Assembly (NCBI RefSeq): GCF_009695875.1
Contig: NZ_VUNC01000001.1
Location: 62,001 to 126,000, forward strand
Length of the DNA: 64,000 nucleotides
Direction: 5' to 3'
Origin: Olsenella porci
GTDB taxonomy: Bacteria > Actinomycetota > Coriobacteriia > Coriobacteriales > Atopobiaceae
The stretch's first letter is position 1. Each line of letters begins with the position of its first letter. The translations under genes were made by a program, and so were the position numbers. The notes under the pieces were generated by a model. The model saw nothing but the letters and a program-made list of their open reading frames with translations, searched no databases and was not told the DNA's origin. Below, in pieces: positions 7,060-18,176 of the stretch.

Positions 7060-7182
7060 GGGTCATTGATGAAACCTCGACCTCACAGTCGATGACCCCT
7101 CGGTGTGCCTCGGTTGGTTGCGCCGGGGGGTAACCCCCCGATGATCGCGCCCGCACCGCCCTGCGGCGGGCGCCCGACCAAC
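7060..7182 (+). promoter_or_regulatory. structured 5' leader RNA before the mgtE-like gene, candidate riboswitch-like element
   Basis: Two nested structures are visible. First, GGGTCAT (7060-7066) pairs with ATGACCC (7092-7098) and encloses an inner CGAC/GTCG stem. Second, GTTGGT (7113-7118) pairs with ACCAAC (7177-7182). It encloses the hairpin CGGGGGG-TAA-CCCCCCG (7124-7140) and the hairpin GCGCCCGC / GCGGGCGC (7147-7173), making a three-way junction. The closing stem ends directly before the AAAGGAG ribosome site. The sequence does not match my recollection of the M-box or yybP-ykoY consensus. Regulation by a cation is an inference from the downstream genes. Confidence 0.5.
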
Positions 7183-7194
7183 AAAGGAGTGCAC

Positions 7195-9033
7195 ATGATT
7201 TACCTCTCCCAGATGCTGGGAAACCCCGTATACGACCTCAATGGCGAGAAGATCGGCAAGGTCAACGACCTCGGCATCGCCACCGGCGAGGTTTTTCCAC
7301 GCGTAACCTCGCTTGCCGTGGAGGGGCCAGGCAAGACCCCGTTCATGATCAGCTGGCGCAAGTACGTGGACTCCTACGACGAGCATCAGGTCCAGCTCAA
7401 GGTCGTCGCCACCGACATCCGGTTCTCGTACCTTCAGCCTGACGAGGTCCTCATTGCCCGCGACCTCCTCAACAAGCAGATCGTCGACACCCGTGGGATG
7501 CGCGTGGTGCGCGTCAACGACCTCAAGCTCTCGGACACCAGCTCCAGCCAGCTCCGTCTCCTGGGAGCCGAGGTGGGCATCAGGGGCATCCTGAGGACCC
7601 TCTCCCCTCGCCTGGAGCGCGTCGTCATGCGCATCGCCAAGTCGCTGGGAAGGACCATCCCCGAGCGCATCATTGCTTGGAACTACATGGACCTGGTGGA
7701 GAGAGACCTCTCCAACGTCAAGCTTTCCGTCTCGCACAAGACGCTCGACGAGCTGCACCCCGCCGACGTCGCGGACATCCTGGAGAAGCTCGACCCGCGC
7801 CTGCGCGGCCAGGTCTTTGCCCAGCTCGACGACGAGCAGGCGGCAAACGCGATGGCCGAGTTCGACGATGACGCGATGGCGGCCGAGATCGTCGGCGGCA
7901 TGGAGGAGACCGACGCCTCGCGAGTGCTGAGCGAGATGGACCCTGACGATGCCGCCGAGCTCGTGAGCGAGCTGGACTACGAGAAGGCTGAGAAGCTCCT
8001 CCGCCTGATGGGCGTGAAGGAGCAGAAGGCAATTCGCCAGCTCCTGGGCTACAAGGAGGACACCGCGGGTCGAATCATGACCAGCGAGTTTGTCCAGCTG
8101 TCCGAGGATTCTACCGTCGCCGACGCCGTAAAGGCCATTCGCGGCCTGGACGAGGACTTCGAGGCGGTGCACTACGTCTACCTCAAAGACGAGGAGGGTC
8201 GACTCTCCGGCGTCGTGAGCCTGCGCGACCTCATCGACGGCGAGACGGACACGCACCTCTCGGACATCTCGTACGATGACCTGGTGACCTCAAGTCCCGA
8301 CGACGACCAGGAGGACGTGGCGAAGGACATTGCCAAGTACAACCTCCTCGCCATGCCCGTCGTGGATGACAAGCGCAAGCTCCTGGGCATCGTCACGGTA
8401 GACGACGCACTCGACGTCATGGAGGAGGAGCACGAGGAGGACCTTCAGATTGCCGGCGCCTCCACGGGCGACTCCGACGGAAGCCAGCACACGCACGTGC
8501 TCTCGTGGCTGCTGCGCAACGAGCTGTGGTTCTTCATCTGGATGCTGGGCGTCATCATTATGGGTTCCATTGCGACAGGAGAGCACACGCTGCAACATAC
8601 GCTGCTGCTTGCACTCGCGCTGCCGGTCGCGATCGTGTCCGCCGGTGACGCCGTGACCTACGTGACCAACTTCTACCTTGAGTACGACGAGGACGACGAG
8701 GACGCCCCGAGCATGCTGGGCTTTGCCCTCCAGGGCCTTGGCCTGGGCATTCTCTTCTCAACGATTGTCCTGCTCGTTGCCTGGGGCATCAACTCCGTCT
8801 TCTTCATGCGTGACGCCACGGGCGGGGCATACGCGGTGAGAGGCTTCACTGCCGCCAGCGCGAGCATCCTGGTCTCGTTCCTCACCACGCCCATCTACCT
8901 CAGGGTATTGCGAAGGCGCGACGAGAGGAACAAGGAGAGTTCCGGCACATCGCTAGCCTGCATCTCCATGCTGGTGGCACTCGCGGTGTTTGTGGCTGTG
9001 GTGCTCCTCTCCACGCATGGGATGGCGATCTAG
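7195..9033 (+). CDS. PRC-barrel / MgtE_N / CBS membrane protein, Mg-transport associated
   Basis: The 612-residue protein has two PRC-barrel-like halves (about 1-80 and 82-165), an MgtE N-terminal helical domain (about 178-290, with DELHPADVADILEKLD), a CBS pair (about 290-410, acidic as in Mg-sensing MgtE) and a C-terminal membrane domain with about five helices (443-608). The membrane part does not show the classic MgtE channel sequence, so this is probably not a canonical MgtE channel. The MgtE_N/CBS module is known to sense cytosolic Mg2+. The stop lies one base before the start of the NRAMP-related gene, implying joint production. ATG follows AAAGGAGTGCAC; a longer upstream frame would run through the leader. 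Confidence 0.82.
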   Translation: MIYLSQMLGNPVYDLNGEKIGKVNDLGIATGEVFPRVTSLAVEGPGKTPFMISWRKYVDSYDEHQVQLKVVATDIRFSYLQPDEVLIARDLLNKQIVDTRGMRVVRVNDLKLSDTSSSQLRLLGAEVGIRGILRTLSPRLERVVMRIAKSLGRTIPERIIAWNYMDLVERDLSNVKLSVSHKTLDELHPADVADILEKLDPRLRGQVFAQLDDEQAANAMAEFDDDAMAAEIVGGMEETDASRVLSEMDPDDAAELVSELDYEKAEKLLRLMGVKEQKAIRQLLGYKEDTAGRIMTSEFVQLSEDSTVADAVKAIRGLDEDFEAVHYVYLKDEEGRLSGVVSLRDLIDGETDTHLSDISYDDLVTSSPDDDQEDVAKDIAKYNLLAMPVVDDKRKLLGIVTVDDALDVMEEEHEEDLQIAGASTGDSDGSQHTHVLSWLLRNELWFFIWMLGVIIMGSIATGEHTLQHTLLLALALPVAIVSAGDAVTYVTNFYLEYDEDDEDAPSMLGFALQGLGLGILFSTIVLLVAWGINSVFFMRDATGGAYAVRGFTAASASILVSFLTTPIYLRVLRRRDERNKESSGTSLACISMLVALAVFVAVVLLSTHGMAI

Positions 9034-9034
9034 C

Positions 9035-10342
9035 ATGACCGCCAGGGAGAAGAGGGCCAAGTCCAGACCCGCGGAGCAGGAGAGGGCACAGGGTAAGCGG
9101 ATCGCGGAATCCAAGGCAAAGAAGACGGGGCTCCTCGCGATGCTCAGCGTGATGGGCCCTGGCCTGCTCACCGCGCTTGCCGGCAACGACGCGGGCGGCA
9201 TCGCCACCTACTCGTCAGCCGGCGCGACCTATGGCTTTGGCCAGCTGTGGACCGTGCCCCTGATGTGCCTCCTGCTCATCGTGGTACAGGAGACCGCAGC
9301 GCGCATGGGCTGCGCCACGGGCAAGGGGTTTGCCTCCCTCATTCGCGAGAAGTTTGGCATCCGCATCTCCGCCGTCGCGATGCTCAGCCTGTGCGTCTCT
9401 AACTTTGCCGTCAACGTCTCGGAGTTCGCCGGCATCGCCTCTGGACTCAAGCTCTTTGGCGTGCCCGTGTACGTCTCGGTGCCCGTCTCGGCACTGGCAA
9501 CTTGGATGCTCACCATGAGCGGGAGCTACCGTAGGGTCGAGAAGATCCTCCTCGCCATCAGCTGCGTGTTCGTCACATACATCGTGGCGGGCGTGCTCGC
9601 GCAGCCCGACTGGGGCAAGGCGCTCCATGACACCGTGGTTCCCCAGATGTCGCTCGACCCCGCCTACATCTCGCTCCTAGTGGCCAACGTGGGTACCACG
9701 ATCTCGCCGTACATGCTGTTCATGGTTGCGAGCAACGTGGTCGAGAAGGACCTGGACGAGGACGACATCCCCGGCCAGCGGGCGGACAACGTGAGCGGAG
9801 CCATCGTCGCCGAGGTCATCACGTGGTTCATCGTCCTCACCACGGGGACGGTCCTCTACCCCGCCCACATCGTGGTCAACGACGCCGCGGATGCGGCACA
9901 GGCGCTGGTGCCCCTCGCCGGCCAGTACTCCTCGGCCCTGTTTGCCGCCGGCCTGGTCGGCGCGTCCTTCCTCGCCGCCTGCGTCATGCCCGGCGTCACC
10001 GCTGGAGCCGTGTGCGAGGCATTTGGCTGGGAGCGCGGCACCAACCGCTCGTGGCGTGAGGCCCCCACGTACTACGGCATCCTCACCGCCATCACCGTCC
10101 TCAGCGCCGGACTGGTCATGCTCCCCGGCGCAGACCTGTTTGGCATCATGATGGCCTCGCAGGTCATCAACGGAGTCCTGCTGCCCATCCTGCTGCTGTG
10201 CATGGTCTACATCGCCAGCGACCGTCACATCATGGGCCGTTGGGCCAACAGCAAGGCCTGGAATGGCCTCACTTGGTTCACCATCGTTGCGGTCATCATC
10301 CTCACGGTGATCATGTTCGCGTTCCAGGCCATGGGGTACTAG
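9035..10342 (+). CDS. NRAMP-related magnesium transporter (NRMT-like, SLC11 fold)
   Basis: The 435-residue protein has a lysine/arginine-rich N-terminus and about 11 membrane helices of the LeuT/NRAMP fold. In helix 1 the transition-metal motif DPGN reads DAGG (D52-G55), and in helix 6 the usual metal-ligating methionine region reads GTTISPYM (T221, T222). As I recall, these replacements mark the NRAMP-related Mg transporters characterised from Eggerthella lenta, which take hydrated Mg2+ rather than Mn2+ or Fe2+. The alternative is an MntH-type manganese carrier, which the missing N and M make unlikely. ATG begins one base after the previous stop, so translation is probably coupled. A strong hairpin follows. 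Confidence 0.85.
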   Translation: MTAREKRAKSRPAEQERAQGKRIAESKAKKTGLLAMLSVMGPGLLTALAGNDAGGIATYSSAGATYGFGQLWTVPLMCLLLIVVQETAARMGCATGKGFASLIREKFGIRISAVAMLSLCVSNFAVNVSEFAGIASGLKLFGVPVYVSVPVSALATWMLTMSGSYRRVEKILLAISCVFVTYIVAGVLAQPDWGKALHDTVVPQMSLDPAYISLLVANVGTTISPYMLFMVASNVVEKDLDEDDIPGQRADNVSGAIVAEVITWFIVLTTGTVLYPAHIVVNDAADAAQALVPLAGQYSSALFAAGLVGASFLAACVMPGVTAGAVCEAFGWERGTNRSWREAPTYYGILTAITVLSAGLVMLPGADLFGIMMASQVINGVLLPILLLCMVYIASDRHIMGRWANSKAWNGLTWFTIVAVIILTVIMFAFQAMGY

Positions 10343-10432: not shown

Positions 10433-11461
10433 CTACTTACTCGCCTTGCGAAACTCGTCCGCGAAGTCCCCGAACATCTTTCCCATCTTCCCGATCTGCC
10501 TTCCGGCCTCCCGGGCAACGTCCTGGGACGTGGGCTGCTGTCTCTTTGTGGAAGTCTGGGGCTTCTGCTTGCTCTCGGCGGCCTTAGCGGCAGGCCCAGA
10601 CGACCTCTTCGCCGGCGCATAGGTCTTCACGGGCGCCTTCCCGCGCTCCTCCTGTGAGCGGTGTAGCTCACCGGCCACCTTGGGGGCGGAGACCCTCACG
10701 TCCGCGGCCTCCCTGGCTTCCATCTGGGGCTCCAGCTTCTTGGTGCCGGTCTCCTCCTGGTACTCCCGCTTGGCCTCCGCAAAGGCGCGCTTGGTGTCTC
10801 CCAGCGCCTTCCCAAGGGCACGCGAGCCCTTGTCGACGGCCTTTGCCGAGGCCTCGTCCGCCTTGGCAACTGCCTTCTTGCTCTCGACCTTTGCCCGGGC
10901 GGTCGCCTCACCGGCACGTGCCGCAGCACCACCCACGGGCTGGAGCGCCGCAGCGGCGTCATCCACGACCATCTTGCCCTTGTGGTGTCCCGCGAGCATG
11001 TCAACGGACACCTCAACGCAGCCAATCAGGGACTCCTCAACGGATCCATGTCCCACGTAGAAGTCGCGCACACGCCAGCCATCGGGGTCGATCGCGATGT
11101 CGCGGACGTACCCAAGATCCTTGCCGCCCTTGGTGACCACGTCCATCCCCAGCCACATCACGCACGAGTCCCAGTCAAACCCCAGGCGCTTGCGGGCGGC
11201 AGCGTCCAAGCCGTCCTCCTGGTTGGTCACATGCAGGCCGTCCTCCTTCGTGACAAACGCGTCACGGGCGAGAAACGCGTCCTCGCGCTTGACCACGCCC
11301 GCCACGTCGGGCCGCTTCACCAGATAGCCCACCAGCTCGTCACCCGAGGGGGAGAAGACGACCATGTGGACCCTGCCGAGCTTCTTGACTTTTTCGACCC
11401 CCTTGCGACCGACCTTGGTGTAGTAGACCTTCTTCCCCACGATATCGTTGGCCTTTATCAT
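10433..11461 (-). CDS. PRC-barrel domain protein with long Ala/Lys-rich helical tail
   Basis: From the chosen ATG the protein has 342 residues. The first 160 or so form two PRC-barrel-like repeats (MIKANDIVGKKVYYTKVG... and WLGMDVVTKGGKDLGYVRDI). The rest is charged, alanine-rich and probably helical (ARAGEATARAKVESKKAVAK and AKAVDKGSRALGKALGDTKR), ending in a basic amphipathic segment (GRQIGKMGKMFGDFADEFRK). PRC-barrels occur in RimM and in bacterial stress or photosynthetic proteins; the role here is unknown. No signal peptide is visible. The upstream start at 11512 is less likely because its extra residues are low-complexity and arginine-rich. It is next to another PRC-barrel gene on the opposite strand. 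Confidence 0.75.
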   Translation of the reverse strand: MIKANDIVGKKVYYTKVGRKGVEKVKKLGRVHMVVFSPSGDELVGYLVKRPDVAGVVKREDAFLARDAFVTKEDGLHVTNQEDGLDAAARKRLGFDWDSCVMWLGMDVVTKGGKDLGYVRDIAIDPDGWRVRDFYVGHGSVEESLIGCVEVSVDMLAGHHKGKMVVDDAAAALQPVGGAAARAGEATARAKVESKKAVAKADEASAKAVDKGSRALGKALGDTKRAFAEAKREYQEETGTKKLEPQMEAREAADVRVSAPKVAGELHRSQEERGKAPVKTYAPAKRSSGPAAKAAESKQKPQTSTKRQQPTSQDVAREAGRQIGKMGKMFGDFADEFRKASK

Positions 11462-11544: not shown

Positions 11545-12009
11545 CTACTCGGCGCTGGGCGCACCCTCCTCGGACTCGCTGCCAACGACCTCCACGTGCA
11601 CGCCCTCGGCCTCCTTCTCGCCCGCGGCTGCAGCTGCGCCGGCAACGCCCGCAGCCTGGCCGGCAACGGTGTTGACCACGTCGCGCACCTGGTCGGAGGT
11701 AGAGGTCACGGTATCAGAGAGCGAGCTGCGAAGCTGGTCCATGCGCTCGCGGGCAAGGTCGACCTTGGCGCGGAGCTCGTCGGTCGTTGCGTCGACGCCA
11801 GGGCGCACGTTGCCGATCTTCTCGCCCACAACACGCGAACCACGCTCGTAGGAGTCAACCGCAGAGTCCCATGCGTCGTTGACGGCGTCGGCAGCCATGG
11901 CACGGCTCTCGGCACCGGAGCGCGGCGCCATGAGGATGCCGGCAGCTATGCCCGCAGCCACGCCCACGACCGTGCCAGCCACAAATCCAAGCGTCCCCTT
12001 ACTGCTCAT
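11545..12009 (-). CDS. YtxH-like small membrane-anchored protein
   Basis: The 154-residue protein starts MSSKGTLGFVAGTVVGVAAG, followed by AAGILMAPRSGAESR. This glycine/alanine-rich single membrane segment followed by LxAPxSG is the mark of YtxH-domain proteins, which are linked to general stress. The remainder is a predicted long helix with regular charged residues (LRAKVDLARERMDQLRSSL) and an alanine/glutamate-rich tail. ATG at 12009 is chosen because AAGGAGG stands 5 bases before it; the open frame to 12096 is non-homologous. A hairpin lies just upstream of the ribosome site. Confidence 0.8.
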   Translation of the reverse strand: MSSKGTLGFVAGTVVGVAAGIAAGILMAPRSGAESRAMAADAVNDAWDSAVDSYERGSRVVGEKIGNVRPGVDATTDELRAKVDLARERMDQLRSSLSDTVTSTSDQVRDVVNTVAGQAAGVAGAAAAAGEKEAEGVHVEVVGSESEEGAPSAE

Positions 12010-12170: not shown

Positions 12171-13301
12171 CTACCCCTCCCCCTCCGGGGGATCCCAGGG
12201 GAGAGGAACCTTGCCCTCTCCACCGTCAGCCGTACCGCCGGCAGCGTCCTCCCCTCCGCCGTCACCAGGGGTATCGCCCCCGTCGGCCCTCTCGCCCAAA
12301 TCGATGTGCGGGCGCGTGGCAAACGCCGTGTTGAGCTGCGAGGCGTAGTCGTCATGTCCGTGGGTGAGAACGGGCTCCTCCGGAGGCTCGTCGGCAAACG
12401 CATGGCGCGAGACGGGCTCGTCCTCCTGGCTGGGAACCAGCTCCTCCGAGGGAGGCTCCCAGGCAACCCTCTCCGCGAGCAGGTCCTGCGAGGACTGGTA
12501 GGCCTCGGGAGAGACTGCGAGCATGCGCTGGATTTGCGCGGCCGAGGATGCGCTAGCGGTATCCCCCTCGGTCGCCCCCGCTAAAGGGCCGTCGTCCTCC
12601 ACCGCCCACGAGGGACGCCTCTCACGCTCCTGGGCCTCACGCGCCTCCCTCTCGGCACGCAGGCGCTCCCTGGCCTCCGCCGCCTTCTTCGCTGCGATGG
12701 CCTCGGCTGCCTCGCGACGGCGGGCCAGCTCCTCCTCGCGCTGGGCGAGGAGCTCCTTGCGCCGCTGCTCCACCTCGTCCTGGATCTGGCGCTCCACCTG
12801 CTCCTCGTACTGCTTGGCGGGCTCGTCTCCCAGGCTGCTGACCAGGTTGGTCAGGCCACTCACGATGGCCTCGATGTCTGGCTTTGGCTCGCCGCCGCCG
12901 CTGAACGCCCAGTTCATGATCCACACGGCACTGGAAAGGGCTCCCGCCACCAGGACGTCGTCCGGGCACGAGAGCTGGATGTCGTACGTGCGGTTCTCAC
13001 CCGGCACGGGGGTCGTCTTTCCACTTGTGATCTCGCCCGAGGCACTGGACTGCGAGAGAAGCTCCACGGTCACGTGCTCCAGGAGGTGAGCAAGCTCGGT
13101 GTTGCCCATGACCTCCTTGAACGTCTCGCCGGAGTCACCGAGGCACACGTGGTCGATGATGTGGGGCATGAGGTTGTAGACGCGCGTAGTCGCGCGGAGA
13201 TCGCCACTGGTGAGGAGCGGTGCCTCCTTCGAGACCCGCACGCGGGCGGTGAGGTTCTTGAGCCCCACCTCTACCCTCTGTATCTGTATGATCTCTGCCA
13301 T
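12171..13301 (-). CDS. protein with cyanophycin-synthetase-N-like HxxEH domain and charged coiled coil
   Basis: The 376-residue protein has no clear named family. Residues 1-130 resemble the N-terminal domain of cyanophycin synthetase: a conserved HVCLGDSGETF turn is followed by NTELAHLLEHVTVELL, which contains HLLEH (HxxEH, the inverted zinc-peptidase motif), then GKTTPVP and a strand-like YDIQLSC. Residues 165-245 are an Arg/Glu-rich coiled coil. The last 120 residues are acidic and disordered. The Mur-ligase-like and ATP-grasp domains of cyanophycin synthetase are absent. ATG at 13301 has GGAAGG 9 bases before it; a TTG three codons upstream is possible. Peptidase activity is only a suggestion. 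Confidence 0.65.
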   Translation of the reverse strand: MAEIIQIQRVEVGLKNLTARVRVSKEAPLLTSGDLRATTRVYNLMPHIIDHVCLGDSGETFKEVMGNTELAHLLEHVTVELLSQSSASGEITSGKTTPVPGENRTYDIQLSCPDDVLVAGALSSAVWIMNWAFSGGGEPKPDIEAIVSGLTNLVSSLGDEPAKQYEEQVERQIQDEVEQRRKELLAQREEELARRREAAEAIAAKKAAEARERLRAEREAREAQERERRPSWAVEDDGPLAGATEGDTASASSAAQIQRMLAVSPEAYQSSQDLLAERVAWEPPSEELVPSQEDEPVSRHAFADEPPEEPVLTHGHDDYASQLNTAFATRPHIDLGERADGGDTPGDGGGEDAAGGTADGGEGKVPLPWDPPEGEG

Positions 13302-13385
13302 GTGGGCCAACCTTCCAGAGCGGCGTTGCGTGCTCCCATTGTAGTTAATAGGGTCGCGACGGACGGGCCGCCCCCGGCGGGGAGG

Positions 13386-14711
13386 CTACCCCTCCTCCTG
13401 GGCGGACTCCCCCTCCGTCGCCTCCTGCGGCTCGGGGGCCGTGACGCGCAGCATCGCCACGCGCCTGCCGCGCATCGACTGCACGTGGAAGGTGTACCCG
13501 TCCACCACGACCTCGTCGCCTGGCTTGGGCAGGCCGTCGAACTTCTCCAGCACAAAGCCCGCGACCGTCTCGTACTCGTCGCTGTCCTCGATGGGCCAGC
13601 CCAGCTCTATCGCGTCGTCGATGGAGAAGCGCCCGTCCACGAGCCACTCTCGGTCGCTCATCTTGGTGAGGTACTTGTTATCGGGGTCAAACTCGTCCTC
13701 GATCTCGCCCACGACCTCCTCGACGATGTCCTCGATGGTGATGACGCCGGCGGTGCCGCCGTACTCGTCCACCACGATGACCATCTGGTCGTGGCTGCTC
13801 TGCATCTCGGAGAGCAGCGGGATGATGTCCTTGGTGTCGGGGACAAAGTCGGCGGACCTCAGGAAGCCGCCAATCGGCTCCTCGGCAGCCCGCTCGTCGA
13901 TCATCGGGCCGATGAGGTCCTTGATGTGAGCGATGCCCACGATCCTGTCCACGTCCTCGTGGTACACGGGGATGCGGGAGTAGCCCGTGCGCCGCATGAG
14001 CGACAGCACCTCCCCCAGCCTGGTGGTGTCCTCCACGGCGGTCATGTCCACGCGCGGGACCATGACTTCTCGGGCGATGGCATCACCCAGGTCGATGACG
14101 TCGTGGATCATCGACTTCTCCTGGTCGCTGAGCTCCTTGGTGTCGGTGACCATGTACTTTATCTCGTCCTCGCTCACGTTCTGGCGATCCTCTATGCCCT
14201 TGACGCCCAAGAGACGGGAGAGGCCCGTGGCGCTTGCCGCTGTGAGTCGCACCAAGGGCTTGGTGATGGTCGCGAACGCGTGGAGCGGGCCGGCGACGCG
14301 CTTGGCGGTGCCCTCGGCGTCCGCCATGGCCATGCGCTTGGGCACGAGCTCACCCACCACGATGGAGACGTACGAGACGATGAGGGTGATGAGGACGGTC
14401 GCCAGGCCATGCGCGAAGCTCTCGCCCAGGCCAAACCCCTGGAGCCAGCGCCCGAACGGCGTGGAGAGGCTGGTCGCCGCAAATGCGGACGAGAAGAACC
14501 CGAGCAACGTGATGGCAACCTGGATCGTTGCAAGAGAATCGCTGGGGTCGTCCACCAGGCTCGCAGCGGAGGCAGCCTTTCTGTCACCTTCCTCGGCATC
14601 ATGGTCGAGGACGACCTTCTTTGCGGTAGAGATGGCCATCTCTGCCATGGAGAAGTATCCGTTTGCGACGGTCAGAAGCAGGGTGACGAGAATCGATAGG
14701 GCTATGTCCAT
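13386..14711 (-). CDS. CNNM/CorC-type membrane protein with DUF21, CBS pair and CorC_HlyC domain
   Basis: The 441-residue protein has the full architecture of the CNNM/CorB family. The N-terminal DUF21 has four membrane segments (about 1-180, with NGYFSMAEMAISTAKK near the start and GELVPKRMAM). A CBS pair follows (about 205-330, with REVMVPRVDMTAVE and DEYGGTAGVITIEDI) and a CorC_HlyC domain closes the protein (about 345-425). Such proteins export or sense Mg2+. It stands alone, 2.5 kb from the Mg-transport operon. GGAGG lies 14 bases before ATG, a long spacing. Older annotations call such proteins hemolysin-like, but no toxin function is implied. Confidence 0.9.
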   Translation of the reverse strand: MDIALSILVTLLLTVANGYFSMAEMAISTAKKVVLDHDAEEGDRKAASAASLVDDPSDSLATIQVAITLLGFFSSAFAATSLSTPFGRWLQGFGLGESFAHGLATVLITLIVSYVSIVVGELVPKRMAMADAEGTAKRVAGPLHAFATITKPLVRLTAASATGLSRLLGVKGIEDRQNVSEDEIKYMVTDTKELSDQEKSMIHDVIDLGDAIAREVMVPRVDMTAVEDTTRLGEVLSLMRRTGYSRIPVYHEDVDRIVGIAHIKDLIGPMIDERAAEEPIGGFLRSADFVPDTKDIIPLLSEMQSSHDQMVIVVDEYGGTAGVITIEDIVEEVVGEIEDEFDPDNKYLTKMSDREWLVDGRFSIDDAIELGWPIEDSDEYETVAGFVLEKFDGLPKPGDEVVVDGYTFHVQSMRGRRVAMLRVTAPEPQEATEGESAQEEG

Positions 14712-14824: not shown

Positions 14825-16897
14825 CTAGGCGGCTGTGATCCTATAGAGCACCATGTCGCCCTGGCGCTGCACGACCTCGAACCCGGGCGTGTCGTCCGTG
14901 ATCCCGTTGATGCCGGCCCACTGGTCCTCCTTGTAGCTCCACTTGAAGGAGTTGAGCGGGTTCTCCTTGCAGTCCTCGAGCTTGATGACGTAGCGGACGC
15001 CGAGCCGTCGGACCGCGTCCTGCACCTCGTGGTCGGTCGCCACCTGGTCGAGCCGCTCGCGGAGTATCGCCGCATCGGCCGCCTGCGAGCCCTCCCCCGT
15101 GGCGAGGTCACGGAACAGCACACGCATGCCCGCGTCGCCATATGCTATGAAGCTCCCATCGAAGGGGTTGTTCATCACGAGGGCGTCCTGGCCTTCCTCG
15201 TGTTCGATGCGGCTCTGACTCGTCCGCAAAAAGGCTCGTTTGCGGGTGTTGATGGTCTCGTAGTCGCTGTAGACGGCTCTGAGGGCGCTGCGCGTCGACT
15301 CCACCTTGGTTTCGACCCTCCCGGTACCCGCACTGGGGGCATCGGGGGTAGGCATGTTGAAGCTGGGAAAGAAGACAGCAATGGTCACCGCGGAGGCGAG
15401 CGCCACGGGGGCGACCGTGGTGGGAACGCTACTCCCCCAGCGGCCCTCCGCCCTGAACGCGCGGGCAAGCCCGTGCATGAGCCAGGCAAAGCCCACGGCG
15501 GCAAGGGGCACGGCGCAGATGGCGGCGAGGGCGGCGAGGCGAGGCGGGTCAGAGTACCAGAACCCCGCGACGATCTCGCGCGCCGTCCCCTTGAGCAGAC
15601 CGTTGCCGACGATGGTGAGGCATGCGAGCGCGTACGAGGCGCTCACCCAGAGCAGCCTGCGATTGCGCAGGGTCCATACGATGCCCAGGAACACGACCAG
15701 GCCGAGGACGGGCTGGCCGAGATCGCCCACGAACCGGCCCTCGTACGCGAGGAAGAAGATGTTGACGATGCTCTGCCAGAGCGAGCTGTCATAGTTCCAC
15801 ATGGAGAACCGCACCACGCTCGCCATGATCGACGAGCGGTTGACCGCAACCCACACGAGCGCGCAGAACGCGAGCCACGCGACCACGAGGGCATGGGGAC
15901 CGATCCTGAGGCGACGGATCCTGACCTCGGCGGAGGTGGTGAGGATGCGCGAGCACACGTACGGCACCAGGATGATCACGTCCACAAAGAGCGCGCTGGT
16001 CTGCGTGAGGGCGACCCCCGCCGCGCAGGCGAGGAACGCAATCAGGGTACGAACGCGGTCACGGCGCGAGAGGTCGGACTCGACCAGCAGCATGAACGCG
16101 ACGGCGCACGAGGGGATGAGTGAGAAGCCCGCAAGCGTGGGGAAGATGGGGCCAAACTCAAGGAGGTACCAGGGGTAGGGCATGAACATGGTGCAGGCGA
16201 TCGCACCCAGGACGGTGATGCGGCGCGACGAGGGCATGATCCAACGCAGCAGCGCCAGCACGCCGAGCGGCCACACAACGGCCACGACGACGAGGTTGAC
16301 CGCGTTCATGGCCACGGCCGTCTCGCATACACCAAGCTGCACGAGCATGGCGCAGGGAATGTACCAGCCGGCGGGATAAAAGCCGGACCCTATGGGATTG
16401 ATGGCGAGGTCCGCCGTGGTCTGGTACAGGCTCATCCCCACGGAAGAGAAGTCCCCCGACTGCGCGAAGGCCAGGACCCCGTTGAGGTGGTGGGCAACGT
16501 CCTTGCCAACCATGATCTGGTTGGGACCGGGAAGGGGCTTGAGGTACATGAACGCCGCCACGACCAGGCCAAGCACCACGTAGAGCGCTACGCACCCCCA
16601 GCTCAGGCGTGGCAGGTCCCTGTCCGGGGCGCCCTTGCGCAGACCATGGCGCGCGAGGAGCGCAGCGGCCACAAACAGGGCGGACGGCACCGCGACCTCG
16701 CTTACGACGTTCGCGGGGATGCGTGCCTTGCCGTAGACGACGCCCAGCACCGCCATGACGCCAAACGACGCCGCAGGGGCAAGGCACGCGGACCATGCCC
16801 TTGGGAGCCTCAGCGCCCTCAGGAGCAGGTAGCCGGGAACGAGCAGGAAGAGGGTCGCGACTGCGGCCGCCTCAAAGAACTCAATCCACATAGTCAC
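14825..16897 (-). CDS. large polytopic membrane protein, DUF6541-like, probable GT-C fold
   Basis: The 690-residue protein has about 12-14 hydrophobic helices in residues 1-500 and a soluble C-terminal domain of about 190 residues outside the membrane. The N-terminus (FLLVPGYLLLRALRLPRAWS) and the general plan fit the actinobacterial DUF6541 group, thought to be membrane glycosyltransferases or polymerases of the GT-C type. Because the locus has no recognisable Wzy, this protein or its YfhO/DUF6020-like neighbours could supply the extracytoplasmic transfer step. GTG at 16897 and ATG at 16891 are both possible starts, with weak ribosome sites. It follows the first ATP-grasp gene after 52 bases. 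Confidence 0.7.
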   Translation of the reverse strand: MTMWIEFFEAAAVATLFLLVPGYLLLRALRLPRAWSACLAPAASFGVMAVLGVVYGKARIPANVVSEVAVPSALFVAAALLARHGLRKGAPDRDLPRLSWGCVALYVVLGLVVAAFMYLKPLPGPNQIMVGKDVAHHLNGVLAFAQSGDFSSVGMSLYQTTADLAINPIGSGFYPAGWYIPCAMLVQLGVCETAVAMNAVNLVVVAVVWPLGVLALLRWIMPSSRRITVLGAIACTMFMPYPWYLLEFGPIFPTLAGFSLIPSCAVAFMLLVESDLSRRDRVRTLIAFLACAAGVALTQTSALFVDVIILVPYVCSRILTTSAEVRIRRLRIGPHALVVAWLAFCALVWVAVNRSSIMASVVRFSMWNYDSSLWQSIVNIFFLAYEGRFVGDLGQPVLGLVVFLGIVWTLRNRRLLWVSASYALACLTIVGNGLLKGTAREIVAGFWYSDPPRLAALAAICAVPLAAVGFAWLMHGLARAFRAEGRWGSSVPTTVAPVALASAVTIAVFFPSFNMPTPDAPSAGTGRVETKVESTRSALRAVYSDYETINTRKRAFLRTSQSRIEHEEGQDALVMNNPFDGSFIAYGDAGMRVLFRDLATGEGSQAADAAILRERLDQVATDHEVQDAVRRLGVRYVIKLEDCKENPLNSFKWSYKEDQWAGINGITDDTPGFEVVQRQGDMVLYRITAA

Positions 16898-16949: not shown

Positions 16950-18176
16950 TCACTCGACCTTGGCAGAAACGAGCTCGCCTATGCGGGCCATCGTCTCCCT
17001 CATGACCTCGGGCCTACCAAACTCCAGGAACACGACTCCCAAGGTCTGACCGCTGTTGACGAGCCATTGCACCGGCGTCCCCATGGGCTGGTAGTACTGG
17101 ACCCGCATGACGTTGTCTCGAATGCAGGGGTCTATGCTCACCCCCTGGAAGGTACCCGCCTTCCCGGTTGGGTGGAGAACATACGAGGCGACGCACCTCC
17201 CACCCCCGTCAAACGAGACGTCCATGGACTCGTCGCCCAGGGCATAGCGCACGCACGCCTCCACGAGGTCGATGCCGGATACCTGCGTGAGCTGCGCAGG
17301 GATGAGGTTGCCACCCGCCCTGCCGCCAAGCTCGACGATGTAGGGAACCCCTCCCCTGGCAACGATGACCTCCAGGTTCATCTCGCCAAAACTGAGTCCA
17401 AGGCTCTGCACCAGCCGGTTGACCTCGTCCTGCAGACGCCTCCGCCGCTCGTCGCCAAGACCGCAGGGGTAGGCCTTTCCCACCGGCACCAGGCCGTTTG
17501 CGGCCTCGTCGCGCAGGCAGTCCATCAGGCCCCAAAACCGTACCTCTCCCTTCGCCACGAAGATGTCGCCACCTATGACGTGGGGATACTCGGCCTCGAT
17601 GAACTCCTCAGCTATGAGCGTCCCGTTCCTGGAGTACTCCCTCGCGTAGTCGAGGGCCGCCTCCAGGCGGTCGTGGCCAAGCTGGCGCAGCACCGTGACC
17701 CCCTTGGATCCGGAGGAGTCTGTGGGCTTCAGGAGCAGCGGGACACGAACGCCAGCCCCATCCAGAAGGTCCACGAGCTGCGCGGGAGTGACCGTCGAGG
17801 GAAACGAGACGTGCGCGGGACAGTTGAATCCATGGTCGCGAAGGTAGTCCCTGAAGAGGTACTTCTCGCTCAGGGTGAGGACCGACTGATAGGGGTTGGT
17901 GGGAAGCCCCAGCTCCTCGCACACCTTGGCCGCTATGGGGGCCGCGGCATCCGAGCCGAAGGAGATGACCCCGTCCACACGCTCGTCACGCGCCACCTGA
18001 AGCATCTCGTCAAAGTCCGTCGTGCTCTTGAGGTAGAAGCGGTCTGCAACGTGCTGCCCCGGGTTATCGGGCAGGTAGTCGCACAGCACGGTCCTGACGC
18101 CAAGCCGCTTGGCCGTCTCGATGGCGGTCACCTGGTGCTGCGCCCCACCAAGGCAGAGCAGGGTCTTACTCGCCAT
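16950..18176 (-). CDS. ATP-grasp ligase, glycan-locus type (copy 1)
   Basis: The 408-residue protein is an ATP-grasp ligase. The N-terminal pre-ATP-grasp Rossmann half runs over residues 1-105 (LCLGGAQHQVTAIETAKRLG, CDYLPDNPGQHVADRFY). The ATP-grasp fold follows, with PLLLKPTDSSGSKGVTVL as the ATP-binding lysine/glycine loop and LGGRAGGN in the metal-binding segment. ATP-grasp enzymes join a carboxylate, via acyl phosphate, to an amine. Its start overlaps the end of wecE by 11 bases, and GGTGAGGG lies 6 bases before ATG. It is a close paralogue of the gene at 25933-27168. Pairing with an amino-sugar transaminase suggests N-acylation of that sugar with a carboxylic or amino acid (inference). 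Confidence 0.82.
   Translation of the reverse strand: MASKTLLCLGGAQHQVTAIETAKRLGVRTVLCDYLPDNPGQHVADRFYLKSTTDFDEMLQVARDERVDGVISFGSDAAAPIAAKVCEELGLPTNPYQSVLTLSEKYLFRDYLRDHGFNCPAHVSFPSTVTPAQLVDLLDGAGVRVPLLLKPTDSSGSKGVTVLRQLGHDRLEAALDYAREYSRNGTLIAEEFIEAEYPHVIGGDIFVAKGEVRFWGLMDCLRDEAANGLVPVGKAYPCGLGDERRRRLQDEVNRLVQSLGLSFGEMNLEVIVARGGVPYIVELGGRAGGNLIPAQLTQVSGIDLVEACVRYALGDESMDVSFDGGGRCVASYVLHPTGKAGTFQGVSIDPCIRDNVMRVQYYQPMGTPVQWLVNSGQTLGVVFLEFGRPEVMRETMARIGELVSAKVE

Follow-up and report, generated by a model that had tools for sequence, protein, structure and literature searches.

A stand-alone relative of the cyanophycin synthetase N domain is a single-copy core gene of the Coriobacteriia and probably an enzyme

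A catalytic role for the N-terminal domain of the cyanophycin synthetase CphA1 was reportedly first described in 2022 and, to our knowledge, this domain was previously known only within a biosynthetic enzyme. The 64,000-nucleotide stretch of Olsenella porci DNA analyzed here (hereafter the window) carries on its minus strand, at positions 12171..13301, a coding sequence for a protein of 376 amino acids in which such a domain, as judged by the open reading frame call, a match to PF18921 and a structure model, stands alone. What might this domain do outside the synthetase? A description of a stand-alone CphA1-type N domain was not found in the literature searched.

The start of the protein can be placed at the ATG at position 13301; a Shine-Dalgarno-like sequence (GGAAGG) lies about 9 nt 5' of this codon, and the resulting N-terminus agrees with that conserved among the relatives (MAQLIDI...). 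The first-pass annotation had located an HxxEH motif at H75, E78, and H79. The motif is indeed present, but this numbering was counted from a TTG at 13310, nine bases further upstream; counted from the ATG, the residues are H72, E75, and H76. In the AlphaFold2 model, the protein consists of a globular domain formed by residues 1-133 (12903..13301, minus strand; PF18921, pLDDT 91, TM 0.75 to CphA1), a helix at residues 143-157, a long charged helix (coiled coil) at residues 160-228 with block pLDDT values of mostly 97-98 (12618..12824, minus strand), and an acidic, variable, and largely disordered tail at residues 229-376 (12174..12617, minus strand), whose pLDDT is below 50 over most of residues 292-376.

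Both profile and structure searches connect the globular domain to CphA1. PF18921 (Cyanophycin synthase-like N-terminal domain) matches residues 38-129 with 29.4 bits (cut-off 27), and the protein also matches TIGR02068, the NCBIfam model for CphA1, in the N-terminal portion of that model and far below its cut-off. A profile of the stand-alone family, compared with the PDB, retrieved cyanophycin synthase chains with E-values of 5.7e-13, 3.3e-10, and 7e-9, and the next match had an E-value of 0.52. The model of residues 1-144 has a mean pLDDT of 91.3, and the best 11 Foldseek matches in the PDB are all CphA1 or CphA2 chains (prob 0.98-1.00), with TM scores by query length of about 0.67-0.77 for the best CphA1 chains. 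The fold is the same as that of the CphA1 N domain (7lg5, 7txv, 7wac) at a TM of about 0.75. M16 peptidases were represented neither by a Pfam match to the window protein nor among the 50 fold-search matches listed, and the LuxS fold appeared in the fold search at noise level (prob 0.14-0.18, TM of about 0.25). The N-terminal domain of the window protein is genuinely homologous to that of CphA1, as the first-pass annotation had suspected for the first 130 or so residues; the structure prediction that it had proposed as a check agrees with this assignment. It was also right that the ATP-grasp (G) and Mur-ligase-like (M) domains of CphA1 are absent from the open reading frame.

The N domain of Synechocystis CphA1 is a zinc endo-cyanophycinase in which C59, H79, and H83 are the metal ligands, E82 is the general base, and H57, F67, and E87 form a second shell (PMC9262961). 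This site is backed by mutagenesis, ICP-MS, and cryo-EM; the C59A, H79A, E82Q, H57A, and R70A substitutions lowered or abolished primer-independent activity, the isolated N domain functions in trans, and the full motif is missing in 17% of the CphA1s in nr70 (PMC9262961). The window protein possesses C53-x18-H72-L-L-E75-H76 as the counterpart of the catalytic Cx19HxxEH, the spacing from Cys to His being one residue shorter in its branch than in CphA1. Its residues C53, H72, H76, E75, H51, F61, and E80 correspond to C59, H79, H83, E82, H57, F67, and E87, respectively. The codon of C53 (13143..13145, minus strand), the upstream counterpart of the third metal ligand, had been overlooked in the earlier annotation; the predicted ligands and general base of the HxxEH helix are encoded at 13074..13088 on the same strand. 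C53, H72, E75, and H76 do not vary in any of the 133 aligned loci from the whole class, so the HxxEH conservation on which the first-pass annotation had made its proposal depend is complete, while H51 differs in three of the 133. In the broad alignment, mean column identity is 33% and only six columns are invariant.

The surface that meets the polymer in CphA1 presents a different picture. The cyanophycin-contacting residues R70 and S60 are found in 22/22 and 20/22 of the aligned CphA1 sequences, respectively, and in 0/27 of the stand-alone members; G99 (26/27) and T101 (27/27; CphA1 numbering) are kept alongside the C-x18/19-HxxEH motif and the second shell. Because the motif is invariant while R70 and S60 are lost, the catalytic machinery and metal shell are retained in the stand-alone members and the substrate surface is changed.

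Within the window's family, 135 of 140 genomes carry the gene, nearly all of them in single copy; two genomes, both drafts, list two matches each. Across the class Coriobacteriia, it was found in 286 of 300 genomes with one match each (264 of 272 when good-quality genomes are considered), and a broader profile recovered it in two of the 14 genomes lacking a match. It is a single-copy core gene of this class, carried by Olsenella, Collinsella, Parafannyhessea, Thermophilibacter, and Atopobium, among other relatives, and none was found on a plasmid. In the genome of the window, we found one PF18921 match, no CphA1 above the cut-off, and no cyanophycinase, and no frame of CphA1 length is among the matches listed for the class. 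Elsewhere in the phylum, the matches from a sample are almost all complete CphA1 proteins, in frames of more than 900 amino acids. Two short matches outside the class (G640 and G709, both Actinomycetota) are stand-alone with an intact motif; these two N domains (L164 and L165, respectively) are located in other gene neighborhoods, and L165 is very divergent. In a phylogenetic tree, one branch with support of 99/98 splits the stand-alone from the CphA1 N domains, although the tree is unrooted and the long branches of L165 and L164 leave the deeper order unsure and the ancestral form undecided. A free-standing relative with a complete active site, which is core to a mostly gut-dwelling class without recognizable cyanophycin synthesis, implies a second job for the fold. 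It also bears on the origin of the primer-generating site of CphA1 and makes the family a class-specific target in the relatives of Olsenella, Atopobium, and Collinsella.

The genes surrounding the N-domain gene fall into two arrangements. In the Atopobiaceae and Collinsella-type loci (79), a gene for a CNNM/CorC-type membrane protein with a CBS domain (77 loci) is followed by the N-domain gene, a YtxH-like gene (75), and a PRC-barrel gene (72); the window has these neighbors, assigned by Pfam, at 13386..14711, 11545..12009, and 10433..11461, all on the minus strand. In 54 loci from the remainder of the class, several of which end at contig edges, the N-domain gene is followed by genes for a LysN-type aminotransferase (36), a D-Ala-D-Ala ligase (39), YtxH (42), and PRC-barrel (37) proteins, and it is preceded on the same strand either by the gene for SerRS (25) or by those for UPF0182 (20), a DPBB lytic-transglycosylase-like protein (23), and a holin-X-like protein (22). 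In one family (f2), the stop codon of the N-domain gene lies 2-6 nt from the start of the aminotransferase gene in 10 loci and the two genes overlap by 4 nt in an eleventh, a spacing as in co-transcribed genes. In lineages outside the window's family (L146-L163 and L204-L235), the genes occur in an order that is conserved class-wide, namely HD-domain, UPF0182, DPBB, holin-X-like, N-domain, aminotransferase, D-Ala-D-Ala ligase, YtxH, PRC, GNAT, and YbaK. This synteny suggests an envelope or amino-acid context for the N-domain protein. As a hint to the substrate it is weak, because the neighbors differ between lineages, and the genome of the window lacks a close orthologue of the aminotransferase of this operon (the best matches reach 25-28% identity) and has its D-Ala-D-Ala ligase gene elsewhere.

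The fusion to a coiled coil and an acidic tail, which had caught the attention of the first-pass annotation, is borne out for the window protein by the AlphaFold2 model but does not define the family, since many orthologues outside Atopobiaceae and Collinsella are bare domains of 132-157 amino acids; longer proteins there mostly carry N-terminal stretches that resemble upstream-start artefacts. Orthologues from Atopobiaceae and Collinsella possess a C-terminal tail of 43-412 residues, mostly acidic and hypervariable, and only in the nearest relatives is it opened by charged helices like those of the window protein. The coiled coil is a lineage-specific extension in Olsenella-like relatives, outside the defining architecture of the family; together with the acidic tail, added in the window's lineage, it probably serves oligomerisation or partner binding. 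The idea of extra fused domains in the long-tailed members was discarded, as Pfam finds only PF18921 in them.

Many of these variable tails end in a conserved tip. The sequence [VIMA]PxPxx[VIL]R, or one near it, closes the protein in 42 of the 79 loci and RGPRMSxKI[IFL] in 11 of them, while about 10 Collinsella-type tails have FGGAA near the C-terminus. Among the PxPxxVR-type tips, the last residue and position -7 each show a pairwise identity of 1.00 and position -5 one of 0.82, compared with about 0.1-0.2 in the linker. The codons of the conserved tip vary synonymously, and therefore selection acts on the peptide; the idea of a DNA or RNA element was rejected on this variation and on the absence of any Rfam match in the region. 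In the orthologues L032-L111 (e.g., L086:6001-6714), the acidic hypervariable linker with its conserved tip, such as PxPxxVR or RGPRMSRKII, resembles an enzyme-linker-docking-peptide design. The tip of the window protein itself (VPLPWDPPEGEG) is divergent, and at its C-terminus (KVPLPWDPPEGEG) the PxPxxVR of the relatives is absent or degenerate. A frame error was considered as the cause and rejected; the other frames of the 3' end do not contain PxPxxVR before a stop, and in the nearest relative the protein terminates in ELPW.

We favor, with moderate confidence, the view that the window protein belongs to a branch of the CphA1 N-domain family made up of free-standing Coriobacteriia proteins, which are metal-dependent peptide or amide hydrolases with a substrate other than cyanophycin. 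By analogy with the CphA1 N domain, the protein most likely binds a metal and is hydrolytic. A metal ion, probably zinc, would be held by C53, H72, and H76, with H51, F61, and E80 positioning these ligands, and E75 would act as the general base, activating a water on the metal for attack on an amide carbonyl, as in CphA1. The CphA1 N domain is a slow enzyme with only modest fold likeness to M16 peptidases, which weighs against a hydrolase. That the substrate should differ from cyanophycin follows from the loss of the polymer-contacting residues and from the absence of CphA1 among the matches listed for the class; given the linkage to D-Ala-D-Ala ligase, LysN-type aminotransferase, YtxH, and PRC-barrel genes, we infer an envelope- or amino-acid-related compound. 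Since no signal peptide is apparent, the protein is probably cytoplasmic. A more specific version of the hydrolase view is possible, if doubtful: an inverted-motif Cys-His-His metallopeptidase family of about 135 residues, acting in Coriobacteriia on an envelope or amino-acid-derived (iso)peptide, possibly the source of the primer-cutting domain of CphA1, and delivered to a partner by the tail tip in Atopobiaceae.

The same C-H-H site and glutamate could also support a different chemistry (lyase, isomerase, or deacylase), a rather unlikely alternative. LuxS has an HxxEH motif with His54, His58, and Cys126 as metal ligands (PMC5029033), its entries are weakly present in the fold search, and amino-acid and tRNA-editing enzymes adjoin the gene in many lineages; yet the LuxS likeness is at the noise level given above, and the sole firm homologue of the protein is a hydrolase. 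We consider it quite improbable that the protein binds metal without catalysis, as a sensor, chaperone, or structural adaptor for nearby metal transporters and envelope proteins, with the coiled coil and tail docking partners. The adjoining CNNM gene (77/79 loci of the Atopobiaceae and Collinsella type), the MgtE-type and Nramp genes close by at some loci, and the docking-motif-like C-terminal tips would fit such a role, but E75, invariant in 133/133 loci and predicted to be the general base, would be needless in a pure metal binder, and most other members of the class have no CNNM gene nearby and little or no tail. Between the peptidase and the structural adaptor that the first-pass annotation had offered, a peptidase-like role is therefore preferred, as an adaptor leaves the invariant catalytic glutamate unexplained.

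Cleavage of cyanophycin itself, whether synthesized by the cell or imported, would be in keeping with the shared fold and catalytic residues and with the activity of the isolated CphA1 N domain in trans. Against it stand the finding that Coriobacteriia genomes have, rare cases aside, one match apiece, with no CphA1-length frame among those listed, the lack of CphA1 and cyanophycinase in the genome of the window, and the absence of S60 and of R70, which CphA1 needs, from the stand-alone family; an endopeptidase of this specificity is very unlikely, and so is the beta-Asp-Arg substrate on which the earlier annotation had suggested testing hydrolysis. A degenerate relic of a complete CphA1 that the lineage has lost, for which the missing G and M domains might speak, is scarcely credible for a class-wide single-copy gene with an invariant active site, its own clade, and conserved synteny, and was rejected on the class-wide conservation. 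The stand-alone protein is a variant of a known domain family, probably with an enzymatic role.

Compared with CphA1, this hydrolase candidate is distinguished by its free-standing form in a separate clade and by its gene, which is core and single-copy in organisms that showed no CphA1. M16 peptidases (inverzincins such as pitrilysin and insulin-degrading enzyme) share the HxxEH motif and the presumed base-and-metal mechanism, but they comprise up to about 1000 residues against about 130 for the window domain, and their third ligand is a downstream Glu, Asp, or His instead of an upstream Cys. LuxS (S-ribosylhomocysteine lyase) shares the HxxEH helix and a metal site formed by two His and one Cys, although its Cys lies elsewhere in the sequence and no sequence similarity was found. 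Peptide deformylase carries HExxH in its helix, compared with HxxEH here. Its Cys-His-His ligand set is the same, a likeness noted for CphA1, whose N domain has very little structural similarity to this enzyme (PMC9262961).

Further genes of the window border the conserved cluster. Genes for an Mg transporter of the MgtE type, which carries a PRC barrel at its N-terminus, and then for an Nramp-type transporter (7105-10342) are convergent to the cluster of CNNM, N-domain, YtxH, and PRC genes, and this transporter pair recurs near some orthologues. An ATP-grasp gene at 16950-18176 was considered as the separate G domain of a split CphA1 and dismissed, as this neighbor is not conserved in relatives and is not among the TIGR02068 matches listed. 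A 690-residue protein with a full-length DUF6541 match is encoded at 14825-16897, beside ATP-grasp and DegT-type aminotransferase genes, and this region resembles the margin of a polysaccharide cluster.
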